21,575 bases of DNA from a virus: IMG/VR virus record IMGVR_UViG_3300048589_001605, positions 1-21,575 of that record, one strand, 5' to 3'. Made by a program: the position numbers and the translations under genes. Below are positions 2,205 through 18,501 of the stretch, piece after piece. Each line of letters begins with the position of its first letter. The stretch's first letter is position 1. The notes beneath the pieces were generated by a model. The model did no database searches, was not told the origin of the DNA, and saw only the letters and a program-made list of their open reading frames with translations.

Positions 2205-2702
2205 TCATTTCGCGGTGGCAGCCATCTCCCCGATCCACGCCTGCAACGCCCTCAGTTGCTCGGCGTTTTCGTGGCAGATCTGGTAGTTGACGGCAACGGT
2301 TCCGGCGACGGCAGAGAGCGCAATGCCTGCGGCGGGCGCATCAGCATCTCCGGCGGGTTCGGGCAGTTCACTGGCGGCGGCAGCGTCGTGCAGGCGCACA
2401 AAGCCACGGTTGATAGTACAAGCAGCATCGGCTTGAACGGGCACATAGATGGGAACCTCCTTGATGATGGTGTCGCCCTTCTCGCGGACGACGCGGACGC
2501 GGTTGACGTATTCGGTGACGACCTTGACGGTGGCTTCGGCCTGACGCAGGCGCGTGGCCGAGGTTTGCAGCGCTTGCTGTTGGACGGCGGCGTCCCACTG
2601 CGCCTGAACGTGTGCGGCGCCTTTGATCCAGCCGATGCCGATCAGTGCAGCGGCGAGCAGGACGAGGGCCAGGCAGCGGTACGGCCAAGGAAACAGGCTC
2701 AT
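2205..2702 (-). CDS. Rz: Inner-membrane spanin, Rz-like
   Basis: A 165-residue protein with an N-terminal membrane anchor at residues 9-26 followed by a helical, coiled-coil-prone region (about 33-70) and a periplasmic C-terminal part, the layout of a lambda Rz i-spanin. With Rz1 it fuses the inner and outer membranes in the last step of lysis. The chosen ATG overlaps the endolysin stop as ATGA. The same frame is open further upstream, but that extension only shadows the endolysin gene. An out-of-frame lipoprotein gene lies wholly inside it, the classic Rz/Rz1 arrangement, which strongly supports the call despite low sequence conservation in this family. Confidence 0.85.
   Translation of the reverse strand: MSLFPWPYRCLALVLLAAALIGIGWIKGAAHVQAQWDAAVQQQALQTSATRLRQAEATVKVVTEYVNRVRVVREKGDTIIKEVPIYVPVQADAACTINRGFVRLHDAAAASELPEPAGDADAPAAGIALSAVAGTVAVNYQICHENAEQLRALQAWIGEMAATAK
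2252..2446 (-). CDS. Rz1: Outer-membrane lipoprotein spanin Rz1, embedded in Rz
   Basis: A 64-residue product read in the +1 frame inside Rz. It has a short signal peptide with a lipobox ending LCAC (lipidated C19) followed at once by a proline-rich segment (TTLPPPVNCPNPP), the hallmark of o-spanins. The start ATG has its own strong ribosome site, AAGGAGG, 9 nt upstream and within the Rz coding sequence, so this is a real gene and not a shadow. An alternative ATG six codons in (at 2428) would also keep the signal peptide. It should be processed to an outer-membrane lipoprotein of about 46 residues that bridges to Rz across the periplasm. Confidence 0.88.
   Translation of the reverse strand: MCPFKPMLLVLSTVALCACTTLPPPVNCPNPPEMLMRPPQALRSLPSPEPLPSTTRSATKTPSN
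2456..2462 (-). promoter_or_regulatory. Shine-Dalgarno site for embedded Rz1
   Basis: AAGGAGG on the minus strand, 9 nt before the Rz1 ATG, lying in the Rz reading frame. Its near-perfect match to the anti-Shine-Dalgarno decides the Rz1 start. Confidence 0.8.
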
Positions 2703-3211
2703 TGCGCTTCCCCGAGGCATTGCCGGTACTCGGTCTGTCGACGCGTGGCCAGCCCGCCGCACAGGCGCGCATTGGCAGGCAGCGCGCAGTCCTTGCCCTG
2801 GAAGAAGCGCCAGCGCAGTAGTTCGGCGCAAGCCCCGGTGTAGTCCTCGGCGTTCAGCTTCTTGACCAGCGTGGATTGGCAGAACGCGCGGCTGCCGACG
2901 TTGTAGGAGAAGCTCACCAGCGCGTCGTACTCGTGCTGGGCCAGCGGCACGGTGACGCATTGCTTGAGCGCGCCCTCAAACTGCTGCACATCGGTGAGCG
3001 CGCGGGCCAGCGCCTTCGGCGGCGTGGTGGTGTCGCCCATCTTCACGTCGGTGGTGGTACCGAAGCCGATGGTCGGCACGTCACCCTTGACCGGGATCAC
3101 CGCGCGGTCGGTGTAGCCCTCGTGCAGCACGATGCCGACCAGGGCGGCGGCGGACAGGGTCAGCGCAGCCACGGTGCGTCGCGCAGTGGGTGATGATGGC
3201 GGGCGGATCAT
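2699..3211 (-). CDS. SAR-type endolysin, GH24 lysozyme
   Basis: A 170-residue muramidase that cleaves the peptidoglycan glycan chain. Residues 12-29 form a weakly hydrophobic, alanine-rich N-terminal segment typical of a signal-anchor-release sequence. E31 follows directly in the HEG motif and is the likely catalytic acid; TIGFGTT at 47-53 is the conserved GH24 block. The aspartate expected between them is most simply D44, a spacing unlike the E-8-D-5-T of T4 lysozyme. Six cysteines (85, 111, 128, 142, 151, 165) suggest disulfide bonds in the released enzyme. Start and stop overlap holin and Rz respectively, each as ATGA. The open frame upstream of the chosen ATG only shadows the holin gene. 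Confidence 0.9.
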   Translation of the reverse strand: MIRPPSSPTARRTVAALTLSAAALVGIVLHEGYTDRAVIPVKGDVPTIGFGTTTDVKMGDTTTPPKALARALTDVQQFEGALKQCVTVPLAQHEYDALVSFSYNVGSRAFCQSTLVKKLNAEDYTGACAELLRWRFFQGKDCALPANARLCGGLATRRQTEYRQCLGEAQ

Positions 3212-3432
3212 CGGTGCATCTCCGGCTGGGCGACGAGCCGCGCAATGGCCGCGCCGATGCTGGCACTGAAGGCGAGAAGCACGAACACGCCATGCGGCAA
3301 CACGTCGCCGAACAGCGGTACCACCACTTCCGCTGCCGTAAAGATCGCCGCGACGATGGACAGACGAATGCTCCATGCGCGCCGCGCGATCTTGCGCCAG
3401 TCGTCCAGCAGGCAGAGTTTGCGGGTGGTCAT
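3208..3432 (-). CDS. Holin-like membrane protein (DUF7940-like)
   Basis: A 74-residue protein starting MTTRKLCLLDDWRK, with a short charged N-terminus and two predicted membrane segments at about 21-40 and 47-66, ending in a short polar tail. Size, topology and position directly before the endolysin fit a phage holin; the LLDDWRKIARRAWS opening resembles DUF7940 phage proteins. With a SAR endolysin downstream it may act as a pinholin that depolarises the membrane rather than making large holes, but that is inference. Both ends overlap neighbouring genes by ATGA. Confidence 0.75.
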   Translation of the reverse strand: MTTRKLCLLDDWRKIARRAWSIRLSIVAAIFTAAEVVVPLFGDVLPHGVFVLLAFSASIGAAIARLVAQPEMHR

Positions 3433-3731
3433 TGCGGGCCTCCCATCAGCTTCAACTTGATGACAGCTCCGACTACCAGTGCGGCCAGGAGGCCGGTGGT
3501 GATGACTTTCACGGTGGTCTGCCACGCCGTGCGGCGGGCATCGCGCCACGCCTCCAGCAGATCACGCAGTTCGCGGATGTCGCGTGCGGCGTGTCCGTTC
3601 TCCAGCCCGAGGTGGGCCAGCACGCGTTCGGCACCACGCTCGGCGGCACGGTCGAGCAGTTCGTCGAAGTCCTCGCGTCGGATGAGCAGCATGTTTTCCA
3701 CGAGGGCGGCGGGTTGGGTTTCGTCGGTCAT
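3429..3731 (-). CDS. DUF6127 family phage membrane protein
   Basis: A 100-residue protein of the DUF6127 type: an N-terminal helical region with RREDFDELLDRAAERGAERVLAHLGL (about 18-43), an RELRDLLEAWRDARR segment (53-67) and one C-terminal membrane helix at about 74-95. It is the first gene of the lysis cassette and overlaps the holin by ATGA, so it may be a second holin or antiholin; this is positional inference. The ATG has TGGAGA 6 nt upstream; a TTG seven codons earlier is less likely. A terminator-like hairpin lies just upstream. Confidence 0.75.
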   Translation of the reverse strand: MTDETQPAALVENMLLIRREDFDELLDRAAERGAERVLAHLGLENGHAARDIRELRDLLEAWRDARRTAWQTTVKVITTGLLAALVVGAVIKLKLMGGPQ

Positions 3732-3752
3732 TGCAGGTCTCCAGAAATGCAA

Positions 3753-5958: not shown

Positions 5959-6348
5959 CTACCCCAGCAGGCCGGACACGATGCGGGTGTAGCCTCCGGC
6001 GTATAGCGTGGTGGATGGCAGGCGCAGCTCGCCCGTGCCGTTGAGATCGGATACGTCGCAGTCCCATGCCAGTTCGCCATCGCCGTTGACGATGCGCGCC
6101 CACGTCGCGGTGCCGCTGGTTGCAATCAGGGCTTCGCCCGTGGGTGTGATGGCGAGCAGACCGTCCTCGACCTCTCCGATGGGTTCGACCAGCACGATGG
6201 TCGCCAGCAGGTCGCCGCCCGGCGTCGCGCCGAGAGCCGGACGCACACCGCCGTAGATCAGGACGTGCGCATTCTCGGTGCCGATGGCGAGGAAGTTGAC
6301 GACGGCGTTGAGGCGGTAATCGTTGAGCGCGGTGGAAATCTGGATCAC
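5959..6348 (-). CDS. Phage tail-region protein of unknown function
   Basis: A 129-residue protein, no family recognised with certainty. It is beta-rich, with glycine turns and few charges, and has no signal peptide or membrane segment (MIQISTALNDYRLNAVVNFL at the start; ELRLPSTTLYAGGYTRIVSG near the end), consistent with a structural tail component. The start is GTG and overlaps the preceding gene's stop as GTGA, so translation is probably coupled to the lectin-like gene. Position between two tail genes suggests a tip or fibre accessory protein. Confidence 0.65.
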   Translation of the reverse strand: MIQISTALNDYRLNAVVNFLAIGTENAHVLIYGGVRPALGATPGGDLLATIVLVEPIGEVEDGLLAITPTGEALIATSGTATWARIVNGDGELAWDCDVSDLNGTGELRLPSTTLYAGGYTRIVSGLLG

Positions 6349-7325
6349 GGCAAAGGCTCCGTCATGGGTTGCGCGCGCAGGTTGTCGGCGACCACCGCGC
6401 GATGTTGTCGTTGGTGGTCGAAGGCGATGACGAGGTAGCGCGGCTCCGGGTCGATGTGGTCGAAGGCATACGCGCCGCTGGCGGCGTCACTCCACGTCTC
6501 GCGCACCACGACGTAGGTGGCCTGGTCGATCAGCAGCACACGGCGGGCGAGCGGCTCATCGGCGATGACGCCCTTCACGCGATGCTTCACCGTGCCCGCG
6601 ATGCGGTGGTCGCCGTGGTAGTAGTGGTTTCGCTTGCCGACCAGCATCCGCAGCCCGCGATGGTGGTAACCGACCATCGCCGCGTTGTCGGGGACGAGGA
6701 TGCGGTGCGCAAGCGCGATGGGTAGTCGGCGATGCGCGGGAAGCGGCGCGTCCACCAGCCCGCTACCCGCATCACCGGCGACGCGATGCAGGCGCAGCGT
6801 GATGCCGTAGCCGAAGATGCAGGGGCGGAACGACGCATACCACCGCTTGAAGTCGCGCCAGACGATCTCGCCATCCACCGACAGTTGCAGCAGCCATACG
6901 CCGAGGTTGGCTTGGCGCTTGATCTCCAGCCGGATCGTGCGCCGCGCGCCGACCACGGCCCAGCCCGCCCACGCCTCGGTGATCTGGTCGTATTCGGAAC
7001 CGCCGCTCGTCCAGTAGGAATGCGCCCAATTGCTGTTGTAGACGCACAGGCGATGCCCTTCGTAGGTCGCCACGCCCGTCCAGAGCCAGAAGCCGAAGTG
7101 TGGCGGTGGCGACGCCGAAGCGACGATCTCCACGTCCATCTCGAACCAGAAGTCCGTGGTCAGCGGCGCATCCGTCAGTCGCCAAAAGTTCTGGGCGTTG
7201 CTGAACACCAGATCGACGGCCTGCTGCCCTTCATTCCACGTCGCCGTGATGCCACCACCGCCGCCGTTGCTGGCAAAGCCAGACGGAATGCCAGTAACGA
7301 AGTCCTGCTCGAATGGATAGGCCAC
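6345..7325 (-). CDS. Tail protein with lectin-like N-terminal domain
   Basis: A 326-residue protein. Residues 1-185 look like a concanavalin/LamG-type jelly roll (FWFEMDVEIVAS, FGFWLWTGV, TIRLEIKRQ, WLLQLSVDGEIVWRDF), a fold often used for glycan binding. Residues 242-320 form a second beta domain of the carboxypeptidase-regulatory type (IAGTVKHRVKGV, then RYLVIAFDHQ). It may contact the cell surface; this is inference. The start is GTG in GTGGCCTATCC, giving MAYPF; no in-frame start lies upstream because a TGA precedes it by one codon. The IS630 copy begins 9 bp upstream (from 7334) and has cut this gene from its GGAGGA site, so expression may now be poor although the coding sequence is intact. 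Confidence 0.75.
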   Translation of the reverse strand: MAYPFEQDFVTGIPSGFASNGGGGGITATWNEGQQAVDLVFSNAQNFWRLTDAPLTTDFWFEMDVEIVASASPPPHFGFWLWTGVATYEGHRLCVYNSNWAHSYWTSGGSEYDQITEAWAGWAVVGARRTIRLEIKRQANLGVWLLQLSVDGEIVWRDFKRWYASFRPCIFGYGITLRLHRVAGDAGSGLVDAPLPAHRRLPIALAHRILVPDNAAMVGYHHRGLRMLVGKRNHYYHGDHRIAGTVKHRVKGVIADEPLARRVLLIDQATYVVVRETWSDAASGAYAFDHIDPEPRYLVIAFDHQRQHRAVVADNLRAQPMTEPLP

Positions 7326-7331
7326 GGCTCA

Positions 7332-7333
7332 TA
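7332..7333. repeat. TA target duplication, left side of IS630
   Basis: The dinucleotide TA lies directly outside the left inverted repeat and matches the TA at the other end. IS630/Tc1-type elements insert at TA and duplicate it. Confidence 0.8.
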
Positions 7334-7357
7334 CCAAGTCGCGTTCAATAATTTAGA
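7334..7357 (+). repeat. Left terminal inverted repeat of IS630 element
   Basis: Begins CCAAGTCGCGTTCAAT; the mate, read from the other end, begins CTAACTCGCGTTCAAT. Twenty of 24 positions agree. Confidence 0.85.
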
Positions 7358-7392
7358 TATCATGTCATTCCATGGACTTTCAGGAGCCGTGG

Positions 7393-7917
7393 ATGAAGAG
7401 TCTGATCGTAGGCGACAAGGCCACCGTGGAGCGCTTGGCCGAGAGACTGAAGAAGGCCACCAGCCACGCGCAGTACCAGCGCATCCAATGCGTGCTGATC
7501 CGTGCCACGCTGGGTAGCTCGGCAGCCGAGATTGCCCAGCTGCTGGGCTGGTCCACTGCCACGGTGCATGTGATGCACTCGCGCTGGGCCAAGGAAGGCG
7601 AAGCGATCTTCGAGGTAGGCCGCCGCGGTGGTCGACGCCACCAGTACCTCACGCTGGCGCAGGAGACTGACCTGCTGGAGCCTTTTGTCGAGCGCGCCGA
7701 GGCTGGCGGGATGCTCTCGGTGGCCGAGATCCAGCAGGCCTACCGGGAGCGCACTGGCAAGGAGGTAGCGCCTTCGACGGTGTATCGGCTGCTGGAGCGC
7801 CACGGCTGGCGCAAGCTTGTACCCCGTCCCCGGCACCCGAAAGCGGACGTCGCGGCGCAGGCCGCCTTTAAAAAAACTTCGCCGCGCGGTACGCCAAGAG
7901 GTCTCGCGCCAGGCTGA
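7393..7917 (+). CDS. IS630 transposase, N-terminal part (frame 1)
   Basis: The 174-residue upstream frame carries the DNA-binding half: helix-turn-helix segments around SSAAEIAQLLGWSTATVHVMHSRW and a winged-helix-like region with SVAEIQQAYRERTGKEVAPSTVYRLLERHGWRK. I chose the ATG at 7393 because CAGGAG lies 6 nt upstream; an ATG seven codons earlier is possible. Beyond the A7 tract at 7870-7876 the frame runs into non-homologous sequence and stops at 7917, so on its own it lacks the catalytic domain. It may act as an inhibitor or simply be the unshifted product. Confidence 0.85.
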   Translation: MKSLIVGDKATVERLAERLKKATSHAQYQRIQCVLIRATLGSSAAEIAQLLGWSTATVHVMHSRWAKEGEAIFEVGRRGGRRHQYLTLAQETDLLEPFVERAEAGGMLSVAEIQQAYRERTGKEVAPSTVYRLLERHGWRKLVPRPRHPKADVAAQAAFKKTSPRGTPRGLAPG

Positions 7918-8458
7918 GCGGGGCCGCTGCGTGCGGCTGATGTTCCAGGACGAGGGCCGCTTCGGGCTGCTCGGCATGCCGCGGCGCTGCTGGGCGCCGC
8001 GGCCCATGCGTCCCGTGGTGGGCGCGAGACTGCAGCGCAAGTATCTCTATGCGTTCAGCGCCGTCAGCCCGCACGACGGCGTTCTCGACAGCCTCGTGCT
8101 GCCCTGGGTCAACGCCCAGACCATGTCGCTGTTCCTGGCCGAGGTCGCCCGGCGTCACGCCGACGAGTTCGTCTTCATGGTGATGGACCAAGCCGGCTGG
8201 CACATCGCTGGCGCACTCGTTGTGCCGCCGAACATGCGGCTGATGTTCCTGCCGCCGTACAGCCCCGAGCTCAACCCGGCTGAGCATCTGTGGCAAGCGC
8301 TACGCGAGGACTGCTTCGCCAACCATGTGTTCTGCGACCTCGACGCTGTCGAGATCGCACTCACCCATGGCATCGCAGATCTCGAAGCCGATCCAGCAAG
8401 AACCCAATCGATGACCGGATTCGAGTGGATAACTTCTATATCATTGAACGCGAGTTAG
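7817..8458 (+). CDS. IS630 transposase, catalytic DDE part (frame 2)
   Basis: This frame continues the transposase after the A7 tract; the part homologous to the family begins about 7877 with LRRAVRQEVSRQ. It contains the DDE catalytic residues in the expected order: D in LMFQDEGRFG, D in FMVMDQAGWH, and E in NPAEHLW. The open frame begins before the shift point but its first 20 or so codons are not family-like. Dropping one A from the tract gives a single protein of about 354 residues, the usual length for IS630. The product would be made by slippage on the A tract, or the copy may be frameshifted and dead. Confidence 0.85.
   Translation: MYPVPGTRKRTSRRRPPLKKLRRAVRQEVSRQAERGRCVRLMFQDEGRFGLLGMPRRCWAPRPMRPVVGARLQRKYLYAFSAVSPHDGVLDSLVLPWVNAQTMSLFLAEVARRHADEFVFMVMDQAGWHIAGALVVPPNMRLMFLPPYSPELNPAEHLWQALREDCFANHVFCDLDAVEIALTHGIADLEADPARTQSMTGFEWITSISLNAS
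7870..7876 (+). other. A7 tract at the transposase frame shift
   Basis: Seven A residues follow TTT. In frame 1 the codons are TTT AAA AAA ACT; with six A the frame passes into the DDE-containing frame 2. The tract is a plausible site for transcriptional slippage or ribosomal frameshifting, or the place of a one-base indel. Confidence 0.6.
8435..8458 (-). repeat. Right terminal inverted repeat of IS630 element
   Basis: Mate of the left repeat; its last three bases are the transposase TAG stop codon. Confidence 0.85.
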
Positions 8459-8460
8459 TA
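8459..8460. repeat. TA target duplication, right side of IS630
   Basis: TA directly outside the right inverted repeat, matching the left-side copy. Confidence 0.8.
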
Positions 8461-8464
8461 TCAC

Positions 8465-8470
8465 TCCTCC
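8465..8470 (-). promoter_or_regulatory. Stranded Shine-Dalgarno GGAGGA
   Basis: GGAGGA on the minus strand lies 3 nt after the stop of the 423-residue tail gene. Before the IS630 insertion it would have stood 12 nt ahead of the GTG of the lectin-like tail gene, now more than 1.1 kb away. No start codon inside the IS makes clear use of it. Confidence 0.65.
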
Positions 8471-8473
8471 GAA

Positions 8474-9745
8474 TCAGGGCCTCCACGGCCCGGTGAGGTC
8501 GAACATGAAGCCGCTGGTGTTGCCTTCGCTGCCGTAGTCCATCGTGACGTAGAGGAACTTGCGATCCTCGTAACCGATGACGTTGTCGATCATCGTCAGA
8601 TGGCCGTAGGGCTGGTTCTGATGCACCCAGAACATCCCCGGCAGCGTACCGCGCAGATGGCCACCACTGGATTCGCGCAGGTAGATCGGATGCAGGATCA
8701 GGCCGTAGTCCGGGCCGTTCGGGAATGGAATGGCACCGGAACGCCCGGACACGTTCTGGTTGTTGCCGTCGTTGAGCGAGAACATCCCGAGGCGCACGTT
8801 GCCGCCGATCTGCGTGTGGTCGCGCAGGCAAATCTTGCCGGTGGTGTCCTGCGAGTAGGCCGAATAGGCGTATTGCGAGGGATAGCTGAAATAGTTGCCA
8901 CTGCCGGTGAGGCTGTAGTTCTCGGTGGCGATCAGGTAGGACGCGAAGTTGTCGCCGGGTTTGTAGCTGTCGAAGTCGGTGAAGGCGTGCAGCACGCGCT
9001 TGTCGCCGCCAAGGCCAGAGGAATTGGCGAGGAAGAATCCCCGGTCATCACCGACCAGCACCCAACTGCGCGCGCCTGCGCCGCTGTCGCCGTTGTTTTC
9101 GTAGGCGGTCGAGCGCGCGTAGTACCACTTGAACCATCCGGAGTACATCGATGTGCCGCTGCCAGTCGGCACCTCGTTGCGCGTCGGCGCACCCGGCGTG
9201 TACGGCGCTTGCGCCCCGACGAAGGTGTCGATATCGGCCATGCCCTCGGCGATGGTCACGCGCCCGAACTTGGCCCACGTCGAGGTGTAGCCTTCGGGCA
9301 GGCTGTCATCCACGCGGAAGCAGTGCCGGTTCGACAGCGGGTTCGGGCTGCGATAGACGCGCTTGTTGGTGCCGATGAACACGATCTCGAAACCCAGCGG
9401 CGCGATCTTCATCGTGATGCTGGTCTGCGTGGTCGCGGGTGATGCCGGTTCGCCTGCGATGCGGAAGCTCACCGTGGTCGAGGTGACGGAAACGACTGTG
9501 AACTCCCCGTTGTAGGTCGGCTGGTCGCAGCCCTCCACCAAGACCACCTGATCGACCACGAAGCCGTGGCCGGTGCCGATGGTCGCGGTGACGATGTCGC
9601 CCACTCGCGCGAGCGCCGTCACCGTCTTGAGATTGAAGCCGGTGACGAGGCAGGCATCGAGCAGCGCGGTCAGGCTGCCCCAGTTGTTGGTCAGCACCGG
9701 TGCGCCCGCGAAGGCGTTGTGCATCCACTTGACCTTGTTGCTCAT
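8474..9745 (-). CDS. Tail protein of unknown function, fibre or tip component
   Basis: A 423-residue protein. Residues about 47-112 form a small beta domain of the kind common in tail proteins (DIVTATIGTGHGFVVDQVVLVEG, then YNGEFTVVSVTSTTVSFRI). The rest is rich in Gly, Ser, Asn and aromatic residues without a recognised domain, and includes WFKWYYARSTAYENNGDSGAG and MFWVHQNQPYGHLTMID. It has no signal peptide or membrane segment. The ATG overlaps the stop of the 1206-residue tail gene as ATGA; the open frame before that ATG only shadows the neighbour. Position after the modular tail protein suggests a tail-tip or fibre part. The IS630 element lies 15 bp after its stop. Confidence 0.75.
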   Translation of the reverse strand: MSNKVKWMHNAFAGAPVLTNNWGSLTALLDACLVTGFNLKTVTALARVGDIVTATIGTGHGFVVDQVVLVEGCDQPTYNGEFTVVSVTSTTVSFRIAGEPASPATTQTSITMKIAPLGFEIVFIGTNKRVYRSPNPLSNRHCFRVDDSLPEGYTSTWAKFGRVTIAEGMADIDTFVGAQAPYTPGAPTRNEVPTGSGTSMYSGWFKWYYARSTAYENNGDSGAGARSWVLVGDDRGFFLANSSGLGGDKRVLHAFTDFDSYKPGDNFASYLIATENYSLTGSGNYFSYPSQYAYSAYSQDTTGKICLRDHTQIGGNVRLGMFSLNDGNNQNVSGRSGAIPFPNGPDYGLILHPIYLRESSGGHLRGTLPGMFWVHQNQPYGHLTMIDNVIGYEDRKFLYVTMDYGSEGNTSGFMFDLTGPWRP

Positions 9746-12700
9746 GGCGTTTCCTCCGCAGGACGATCCACATCGCCGCGCACCAGCAAGGTGAAAGAAT
9801 CGTTGGTGACGGTTTCCGGCCCCTGCTGAATCGTGCGCACCACCCATACCGGGAACAGCGCGCCGGTAGTGTTGAAGCGCAGCACATTGCCGGTCGCCCA
9901 GCCCGAGCCCCAGCCGATGGCGGCCAGCGTGAAGTACGGTTTGCCGGTGGCCGGGTTGATCGGCGCGATGTTGCTGCCCGTGGTGCCGGTGGCGATCACG
10001 CCGACGTGTTCGCCGATGACGTTGAACGAGGTCGCGTTGGTGAACTGGATCGCCCAGCGTTCGGTGATCGCGCCCGCGTTGGTGACGACGATGGGAGCCA
10101 GCACGTCGTTGTAGGTGGCGGTCGCCGCAGAGCCGCTGATGGCATCGAGGAAGGTGCCGTTCCACGTGGCCTGATCGAACAGGTTGGAGACGTAGGCACG
10201 CAGGTCGCCCGACACCAGCGCCGAGGAGACGTGCGCGCCGACCGGGTAGTCGTGGGTGATCTGGCGAGTGAAGGCGAGTCGCCCGGAGATCTGCACGTCC
10301 GACACCTGCGCCATGTCCTCGATGCGATGCTCCACCGTGATCGGCTGCACCCAGCCGGTGACCACACCGAAGTTCACGGTTCCGGCTTCGAGGTCTGCCG
10401 TGTAATCGGCGGTGACGACTGCGCCGTTGCCGTCGAGCACGCGCACGCGCGACAGGCGTTCGCGCCCGCAGTCCACGACCTGCCCGCTGGTGGCGACGAG
10501 CGGCCCGACCGTGGCGGTGTGGCCGATCACCGCGAAATCGCCCGCGCGGAAGATCGGCACGCGGCCATCCTGCGGCAAACGCACCGGATCGAGGCCGATG
10601 ATGTCGGCGTCCAGCGGCAGGTAGGAATACGCGACCGCGTTGTACTTGATGGTGTCGGCGAACACCGGCACCGGCTTGAAGATTTTGGGAACGCCGTCGA
10701 TGGTGACGACCGCATCCGGGTCGTACCAGATCTGCCCCTCGTTCCCGGCGGCGACGACCCACGCGCCGAAGCGCACCCGCACCACGCCGGTTTCGTAGTC
10801 GATGGTGCCGAGCACGTCGGTGCCGGTGATGTCGCCGTTGTTGTTGGCACTGACGTTGATCGTGCCGCCGGTCAGGCGCGTGGCCAGCAGTTGCAGACTC
10901 GATGGCCGCACCGGCGAGGCCGGAACGCGGAAGGTCACCTCATCGACCGGCGTGCCGTCCAGCGTGGTCAGCAGCGAGCGCAGCGCCACCGCGTTCGCGG
11001 CGGCGGGCACCCACGCCGTGATGCTGACTGCGCCGTTGGCGTAGTTGATGCCGCCCGCCAGCGTCGCCGCACCCGTCACCGGATTCAGGTCGTAATACAG
11101 GCTGCCCAGCCGGTCGAAGTAGGTCTTTCCGCCCAGCGTGAAACTGATGCTGCCCGGCACGATGTTCTCGGCGAAGCTGGGCGTCAGATCGATGACCAGA
11201 GCGCCTGCGGTGAAGCCCTCATTGACCGCGTTGGAGGTGCCCGCCGCCCGAAAGCGCACCTTGGCCCAGCCGGATTCGTCGATGGGCATCGATGCGCCCG
11301 CCGTGATGTATTCCCAATGCGAGAACAGGTTGCGGTACACCGGCACCAGCGCGTTGCTGGCGTTGCGTGTCCAGCCGATGCGGGTGACGCTGTAGCGCGC
11401 CACCGGAATGCGCACCGTGGTGTCCGGGCCGAAATGAACGACGCCGGTCGAATAGTTCACCGTGCCGAACGCCGTGCCCTGCGGGTCGCGCAACACGCCG
11501 AGGCCATCGTCCTTGACGATCTTGATCGGATCGATCTGGCGGATCAGTTGCAACTCGGCGGGCGTGGTCGAGATGTACTCGTAGAGGTCGATCAGCAGGT
11601 TCCACTCCAGCTCGACCGTGCCGGGGATCAGGCCATCGAAATCGACCTCCACGTCGATGCTGCCGTCGCCATTGCGCAGCGGCGCGTGGAATTCTTCCTC
11701 GTTGGGCGGCCCCCAGGTGTAGGCGACGCTGTAGGTCTGGCCGCCCGCAGGCAGCACGGCAGGCGTGATCTGGATCAGGCCGGTCTGGTAGTTGATGCTG
11801 CCGCTGGCGTGGCCGCTGATCGCGCCCTTGCCGTCATCGGTGGCGGTGCGGGCGGTGCCGTCGTTCCAGGTGATCGTCACCAACCCTGGCGTCACGCCCG
11901 CATTCGAGAGCTGGAGTGCCACCGCTGGCGGCGCAATGCTGCCGCCGGATCGATTGAAGTAGTTGGCCTTGCCGCCCCACGCATAGACGATCTCGCTGCC
12001 CACGTCCGGCAGCGCGCCCACGGTGACGGCCACCGTGCCGGTGGTGTAGCTGACCGTGCCGACGCCGTACTCGGGGCTGGCACCCTTGAGCACGCCCGCG
12101 CCGTTGTCGCGCAGGTCGTACCACTTGCCCTGTGCGCGGTAGCTCACCTGCACCGTGCCCGGAGATGGGCTGGGCACGATGGTCAGAATGTAGTTGTACG
12201 AGCGGTTTTCGATATCCACCCGCACGCCCGCCGTGTCGGCCACGCGGATCGGCGCGGCGGCAGGCCGGAAGGTGATGGTCTTGCTGCCCGAGTAGGTCGG
12301 CGCGCTGGATGCCAGCGCGATCTGGCCGCGCCCGTAGTTGATGGTGCCGACCACGGTCGCGCCCGACATCAGGTCGCCGCCGTTGTCGACGAGCGTCGCG
12401 CCGCTGACGGTGATCGACAGCGTCCCGGGCTGGATGGCGTTGCCGACCGAGAGCACGGTCGATGCATTGAACGCCAACGAGGTGGTGTAGGACACCGTGC
12501 CGTTGTCGGATTCGATCAGGGTTTCGGAGGTGCCGCCTGCGGTGAGATCGAGCAGCGGCGTTTCCGTCTGCGCCGAGGGCACCAGCTGTGTGAACACGCT
12601 GGTGACGCTGGCGGCCACATCGCCGATGGCGACCGGCTGGGTGGTCTTGACCACGCCGCAATATTTGGCGGCGTCGGCCACCACGGTATCGCGGGTCTTG

Positions 12701-17856: not shown

Positions 17857-18501
17857 TCAGTCCACCTGCCGCAACTGCTTTTCGATGGCCACCGACAGGC
17901 GCGGGATACGACCGGCGACCATGCGCTCGACGTTCAGCCGCTTCTTGAGCTGCACGCGCGGCACCAGCACGGCGATGGGCACGTCCGCGCCGCGCTTCAA
18001 CTTCTTGATGCCTTCGGCCTTGCGGTAGCGGCGCTTGAAGCCCGACAGTGGCCGGTCGTGTTCCTTGATGTTCTCGGCCATCAGCACGAGGTTCCCCTTG
18101 GCGTTCTTGATGAAGTAGGCGTTGCCGCCGCGCATCAACTCGGCGATTTGCGCCTTGAAGCGTTTGCGGCCCACGCGCCCGTGCAGCGGGATCAGCATCC
18201 GGCCACCGATCACGCCGCCACGCTCGTGGATGCCCGACCACGGAATGCGCGAGCCGACGTAGAGCGCAGGCAGTCGGTTCTTGTCCTTGTCGAGCACCTT
18301 GGCGGTGAAGCCCTTGACGAAGGACTTCTTGACCACGGTCATCTGGCCCGCGACGTGGCTGCGCACGTCCTGCTTCAGATCGGCGGCCTCGGACGCGATG
18401 CCGCGCGCGACCGCCTTCTTGACCTTGTCGCGGAACTCGCCGCCCCAGCGGCGCAACTGCGCCTGCGCGGCCTTGCTATCGATGCGGATCGATATGCGCA
18501 C
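17857..18501 (-). CDS. DUF6441-like minor tail protein
   Basis: A 214-residue basic protein. The N-terminus (MRISIRIDSKAAQAQLRRWGGEFRDKVKKAVARGIASEAADLKQDVRSHV) has the strand-helix start of HK97 gp10-like and DUF6441 proteins, and the middle carries HERGGVIGGRMLIPLHGR. It lies between the tail chaperone and the tape measure gene, where minor tail proteins of this type occur in related prophages. The start is GTG and overlaps the end of the chaperone GT frame by 26 bp. I am fairly sure of the family and less sure of its place in the virion. Confidence 0.7.
   Translation of the reverse strand: MRISIRIDSKAAQAQLRRWGGEFRDKVKKAVARGIASEAADLKQDVRSHVAGQMTVVKKSFVKGFTAKVLDKDKNRLPALYVGSRIPWSGIHERGGVIGGRMLIPLHGRVGRKRFKAQIAELMRGGNAYFIKNAKGNLVLMAENIKEHDRPLSGFKRRYRKAEGIKKLKRGADVPIAVLVPRVQLKKRLNVERMVAGRIPRLSVAIEKQLRQVD

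Follow-up and report, generated by a model that had tools for sequence, protein, structure and literature searches.

A complete insertion sequence (IS) of the IS630 type lies in the late operon of a tailed phage, between an intact lectin-like tail gene and the ribosome binding site from which that gene would have been translated. Separation of the gene from its site, together with the loss of expression that we infer from it, is likely to be the best explanation of this arrangement.

The sequence analysed, hereafter called the window, is an IMG/VR viral contig of 21,575 bp with the late genes on its minus strand. These include genes coding for a major capsid protein of the E family, a tape measure protein, tail proteins and a lysozyme, as well as holin and spanin-like genes. 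Each late gene compared aligned over approximately its full length with at least one relative, except the tape measure gene, for which comparison was limited to the part lying in the fetched loci. Broken late genes, which would mark a defective prophage, were not found among the genes compared on this partial contig. The holin, lysozyme and spanin-like genes (2205-3752) overlap tightly. Beyond the phage lysis genes, positions 1-1656 contain a gene for a three-Cys-motif partner protein (TcmP) and a convergent DUF5131 gene, a pair which fits the PADLOC candidate defence pair PDC-M41A/B.

The junction between the two tail genes

The lectin-like gene (6345-7325, minus strand) starts with GTG and codes for 326 amino acids. 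Its reading frame is collinear with those of the relatives, in agreement with the earlier note, which had described the coding sequence as intact. The protein model had a mean pLDDT of 70, with mostly 75-93 for residues 31-190, and model residues ~25-190 resemble CBM66 and other concanavalin-like carbohydrate-binding folds; the label lectin-like appears reasonable on the basis of this model. The gene upstream (8474-9835, minus strand, start codon approximate) matches PHROG 9998 and the tail assembly PHROG 9600, and its coding end, ...GPWRP-TGA, is intact as judged from the relatives. Downstream, a virion structural gene (5959-6348, minus strand, PHROG 3758) starts at 6348 and overlaps the end of the lectin-like gene at 6345 in GTGA, the overlap that had been noted earlier.

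The lectin-like protein (eleven loci) and the upstream protein were both used to fetch relatives, which gave 25 loci with 21 distinct junctions. All 25 were free of the IS, which was present in the window only, and all had the same order, ...TGG AGR NNN, stop codon, 3 nt, ATG or GTG. In every one of them the final codons of the upstream gene contain a Shine-Dalgarno sequence, GGAGG or GGAGA, 8-9 nt before the start codon of the next gene. The corresponding site in the window is the GGAGG at 8480-8484 (minus strand), in the Trp-Arg codons at the end of the upstream gene, a position which in the relatives lies 9 nt before the next start. The GGAGGA at 8465-8470, which had been taken for the ribosome site of the lectin-like gene, was absent from all 25 relatives. 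All 25 use the same start codon and none starts elsewhere, which confirms GTG 7325 as the start codon in the window.

The two genes are thus placed in the relatives as would be expected for translational coupling, and every one of them retains the stop-start arrangement and a strong site, down to 55 % protein identity. In the window the junction reads GGAGG (8480-8484), TGA, TTCGGAGGAGTGA (8473-8461), IS, TGAGCC-GTG. What the insertion removes is therefore the conserved 3-nt spacing between stop and start and the Shine-Dalgarno sequence within the upstream gene. No exact sibling of the window without the IS was found, and a looser junction pattern gave 73 matches, none with a lectin-like gene.

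The insertion element and its target duplication

The element between GGAGGA (8465-8470) and GTG 7325 is of the IS630 type, as had been proposed, and the insertion is real; its limits are 7332-8460 (plus strand, 1129 bp). The ends, TACCAAGTCGCGTTCAAT.../...ATTGAACGCGAGTTAGTA, were defined by the inverted repeats and by full-length copies with the same ends. The repeats (7331-7357 and 8435-8461) have 27-nt arms with 85 % complementarity, in keeping with the terminal repeats of the IS630 family. Full-length related copies with 70-82 % identity occur in beta-proteobacterial genomes and in one Polaromonas plasmid, and the tips TACCA...TAGTA are common to all related copies. Neither other viral contigs nor 321 genomes from the class to which L003 belongs yielded a close relative of the IS, the latter search being run without a positive control.

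The transposase is coded by two overlapping reading frames on the strand opposite to the late genes, so that the element is antisense to the late operon, as stated earlier. orfA (7372-7917, plus strand) contains the winged-helix/HTH DNA-binding part (Pfam HTH_33, HTH_29 and HTH_23) and corresponds to positions 2-133 of the NCBIfam profile transpos_IS630. orfB (7817-8458, plus strand) contains the catalytic part (Pfam DDE_3; MFQDEGR, VMDQAGWH and NPAEH) and corresponds to positions 119-296. The score against this profile was 120 bits for orfB (cut-off 100) and 74.9 bits for orfA alone. The two thus match complementary halves of the profile, and together they have the HTH and DDE_3 domains that characterize the IS630 family. 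The second D and the E of the transposase are 31 residues apart.

An A7 run (7870-7876, plus strand) is located at the passage from orfA to orfB. Production of the transposase would require a frameshift here. Seven full-length copies, i.e. the window and six others, have a run of A7 or A8 at this place (IS position 538/539) and change frame in the same way. Because the run and the frame change are both conserved, a programmed frameshift or a slippage site most likely accounts for the split, and a decayed transposase was ruled out. Fusion of orfA and orfB through a frameshift is known for part of the IS630 family (PMC5009743). The element in the window is complete and probably active.

The IS630 family typically duplicates TA at its target, and the superfamily is usually held to be TA-specific. 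The window element is instead flanked by the 3-bp repeat TCA (TGA on the coding strand) at 7329-7331 and 8461-8463, as assigned by flank comparison and an empty site. The loci used for this reading were the window (7329-8463), L045, L014, L044, L047 and L170. The flanks of five copies were TCA/TCA in the window, TGA/TGA in L045, L044 and L047, and TTA/TTA in L014. In L047, 53 bp at the right end of the IS are repeated in tandem (reverse complement ~2577-2682), and the target duplication fits only after the second copy. The exception was L046 (TCA/TAA), in which the right flank seemingly does not continue the interrupted gene, the other half of which is missing. On the Polaromonas plasmid pPNAP04 the empty paralogous site reads CTGAAAA and the filled site CTGA-[IS]-TGAAAA; once joined, the flanks of this copy match another site on that plasmid, which has a single TGA and lacks TA. 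The TNA/TNA flanks, together with this empty site lacking an extra TA, show that 3 bp, TNA, are duplicated, and the empty site rules out TA duplication. In the window one TNA, rather than one TA, should hence be removed to restore the empty site, and the distance between GGAGGA and GTG becomes 7 nt instead of the 12 nt calculated earlier.

IS elements are common points of misassembly, and since the record is an IMG/VR viral contig, phage sequences could have been joined through an IS copy belonging to another replicon. This is highly improbable, as the genes on either side are neighbours in one operon, just as they are in every relative, and direct repeats of TCA are what a true insertion would leave.

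The element works like IS630 but is not classed among the canonical members that duplicate TA, the TA dinucleotide duplication of the family not being found. Whether it represents an IS630-type subgroup in which TNA duplication and the 31-residue D-E spacing reflect a changed cleavage stagger is about evenly balanced. Searching the literature for 3-bp duplications by IS630 elements yielded nothing pertinent, which is weak evidence of absence. To specialists in IS elements, the more unusual feature here is that a transposase of the IS630 type duplicates TNA.

The 13-bp stretch and the expected effect on expression

The stretch TTCGGAGGAGTGA (8461-8473, minus strand), which contains GGAGGA (8465-8470) and ends in the TGA of one target duplication copy (8461-8463), was absent from all 25 relatives. 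It combines a strong Shine-Dalgarno sequence, a position directly adjoining the IS and a sequence unique to the window. It was ruled out as part of the IS, not being common to the other copies. Two phage contigs that match GGAGGAGTGATACTAAC and have no IS inside (L172, L173) were chance matches.

Most likely the junction already had the 13 bp before the insertion, with GGAGGA 7 nt from GTG. In the joined flanks this site gives -9.5 kcal/mol, and so strong a Shine-Dalgarno sequence at that place was obtained with 18 of 2000 random 10-mers from the window (~1 %). Because random 10-mers so rarely give such a site, a native origin is preferred, and the figure points to selection for GGAGGA prior to the insertion. 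The opposite view, which is possible but rather doubtful, is that the IS hit the ancestral stop codon TGA of CCC-TGA-GCC-GTG and either brought donor flank or gained base pairs at its right end; the native site would then be GGAGG 8480-8484, and GGAGGA would never have served the gene. It accords with the 3 nt between stop and start in 25 of 25 relatives and with L151, which reads precisely the expected CCC-TGA-GCC-GTG. The stretch also ends in TGA, which is frequent in the flanks of this element; the right end of L047 shows that extra DNA is possible, and no phage contig with the 13 bp but without the IS was found. Besides the random 10-mers, the finding that no IS copy in 20 genomes had such a flank stands against it. 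If the 13 bp are native, as preferred here, a sibling phage without the IS would carry TGATTCGGAGGAGTGAGCC before the GTG.

Whichever site was native, the lectin-like gene lost one of -9.3 (relative-type) or -9.5 kcal/mol (GGAGGA). The best anti-Shine-Dalgarno pairing in the 20 nt before GTG 7325 is now at background level, -2.8 kcal/mol, compared with -6.4 to -9.3 kcal/mol in the relatives. Arbitrary GTGs of the window have a median of -2.5 kcal/mol, and 58 % of those on the strand of GTG 7325 pair no more strongly than -2.8 kcal/mol. The claim that the gene lacks a good ribosome site is thus borne out. A search of 7250-8600 revealed neither a sigma-70-like promoter nor an intrinsic terminator. 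Weak Shine-Dalgarno pairing also occurs at several other starts in the window, e.g. -3.2 kcal/mol at 18501, so that GTG 7325 may still support some translation. Antisense reading frames inside the IS (7360-8040 and 7868-8296) could carry ribosomes part of the way.

On the favoured reading, a complete IS630-type element inserted at a TGA in the junction of two late tail genes that are translationally coupled, duplicated TNA and left both reading frames whole. The lectin-like GTG is now separated from its Shine-Dalgarno sequence by 1.13 kb of antisense DNA, and it has also been moved away from the upstream stop codon. Loss of the initiation site and of coupling is well supported by the junction sequences. 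Translation of the lectin-like protein would be strongly lowered, and polarity may extend to the downstream tail and lysis genes, hence reducing or abolishing particles and infectivity. Such a loss of expression and its spread to later genes, as suggested earlier, is plausible by deduction from the junction, and ORF-level annotation would indeed miss it.

It is also conceivable, although unlikely, that the phage tolerates the insertion and remains viable, with enough tail protein made through transcription across the IS and weak initiation at GTG 7325. The neighbouring reading frames are all intact, no terminator was detected in the IS, and other genes of the window use weak Shine-Dalgarno sites; the tight coupling and strong site kept to 55 % protein identity, however, argue that the strength of initiation matters. 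An insertion of this kind is an ordinary type of mutation, the effect of which on the phage is not readable from the sequence alone. With reduced expression as the favoured reading, the window provides a clean example of how an IS can silence phage late genes without a frame break, visible only by comparison of junctions.

The further proposal that a prophage was fixed in a defective state is not borne out by the record, a 21.6-kb viral contig without host DNA or integrase. The IS is possibly present in only part of the population, and the sample may also contain phage without it. A search of 16 related viral records gave no tyrosine integrase. The phage lineage is possibly temperate, because four relatives sit in bacterial contigs and Curvibacter phage PCA1 has integrase genes.

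Comparison with known systems

Phage PCA1 (OP588919) has the same gene order as the window, i.e. tape measure, large tail protein, upstream gene, lectin-like gene, virion structural protein and tail protein, and its integrase and excisionase genes adjoin. It is a distant relative in which the upstream and lectin-like genes are 2 nt apart with no IS. The protein at the lectin-like position is annotated as B30.2/SPRY and has ~40 % identity with that of the window over the C-terminal 98 residues only.

Like members of the IS630 family (Tc1/mariner-like DDE), the window element has an HTH and DDE_3 transposase, a length of ~1.1 kb and TA at both tips, but it differs from them in the 3-bp TNA duplication and in the 31 residues between the second D and E. 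The copy on Polaromonas naphthalenivorans pPNAP04 (133047-134176) shares with it the ends, the length, the A7 site, 70 % DNA identity and the TGA duplication, whereas it has a further frame break in orfB and is located in plasmid DNA rather than in a phage operon.
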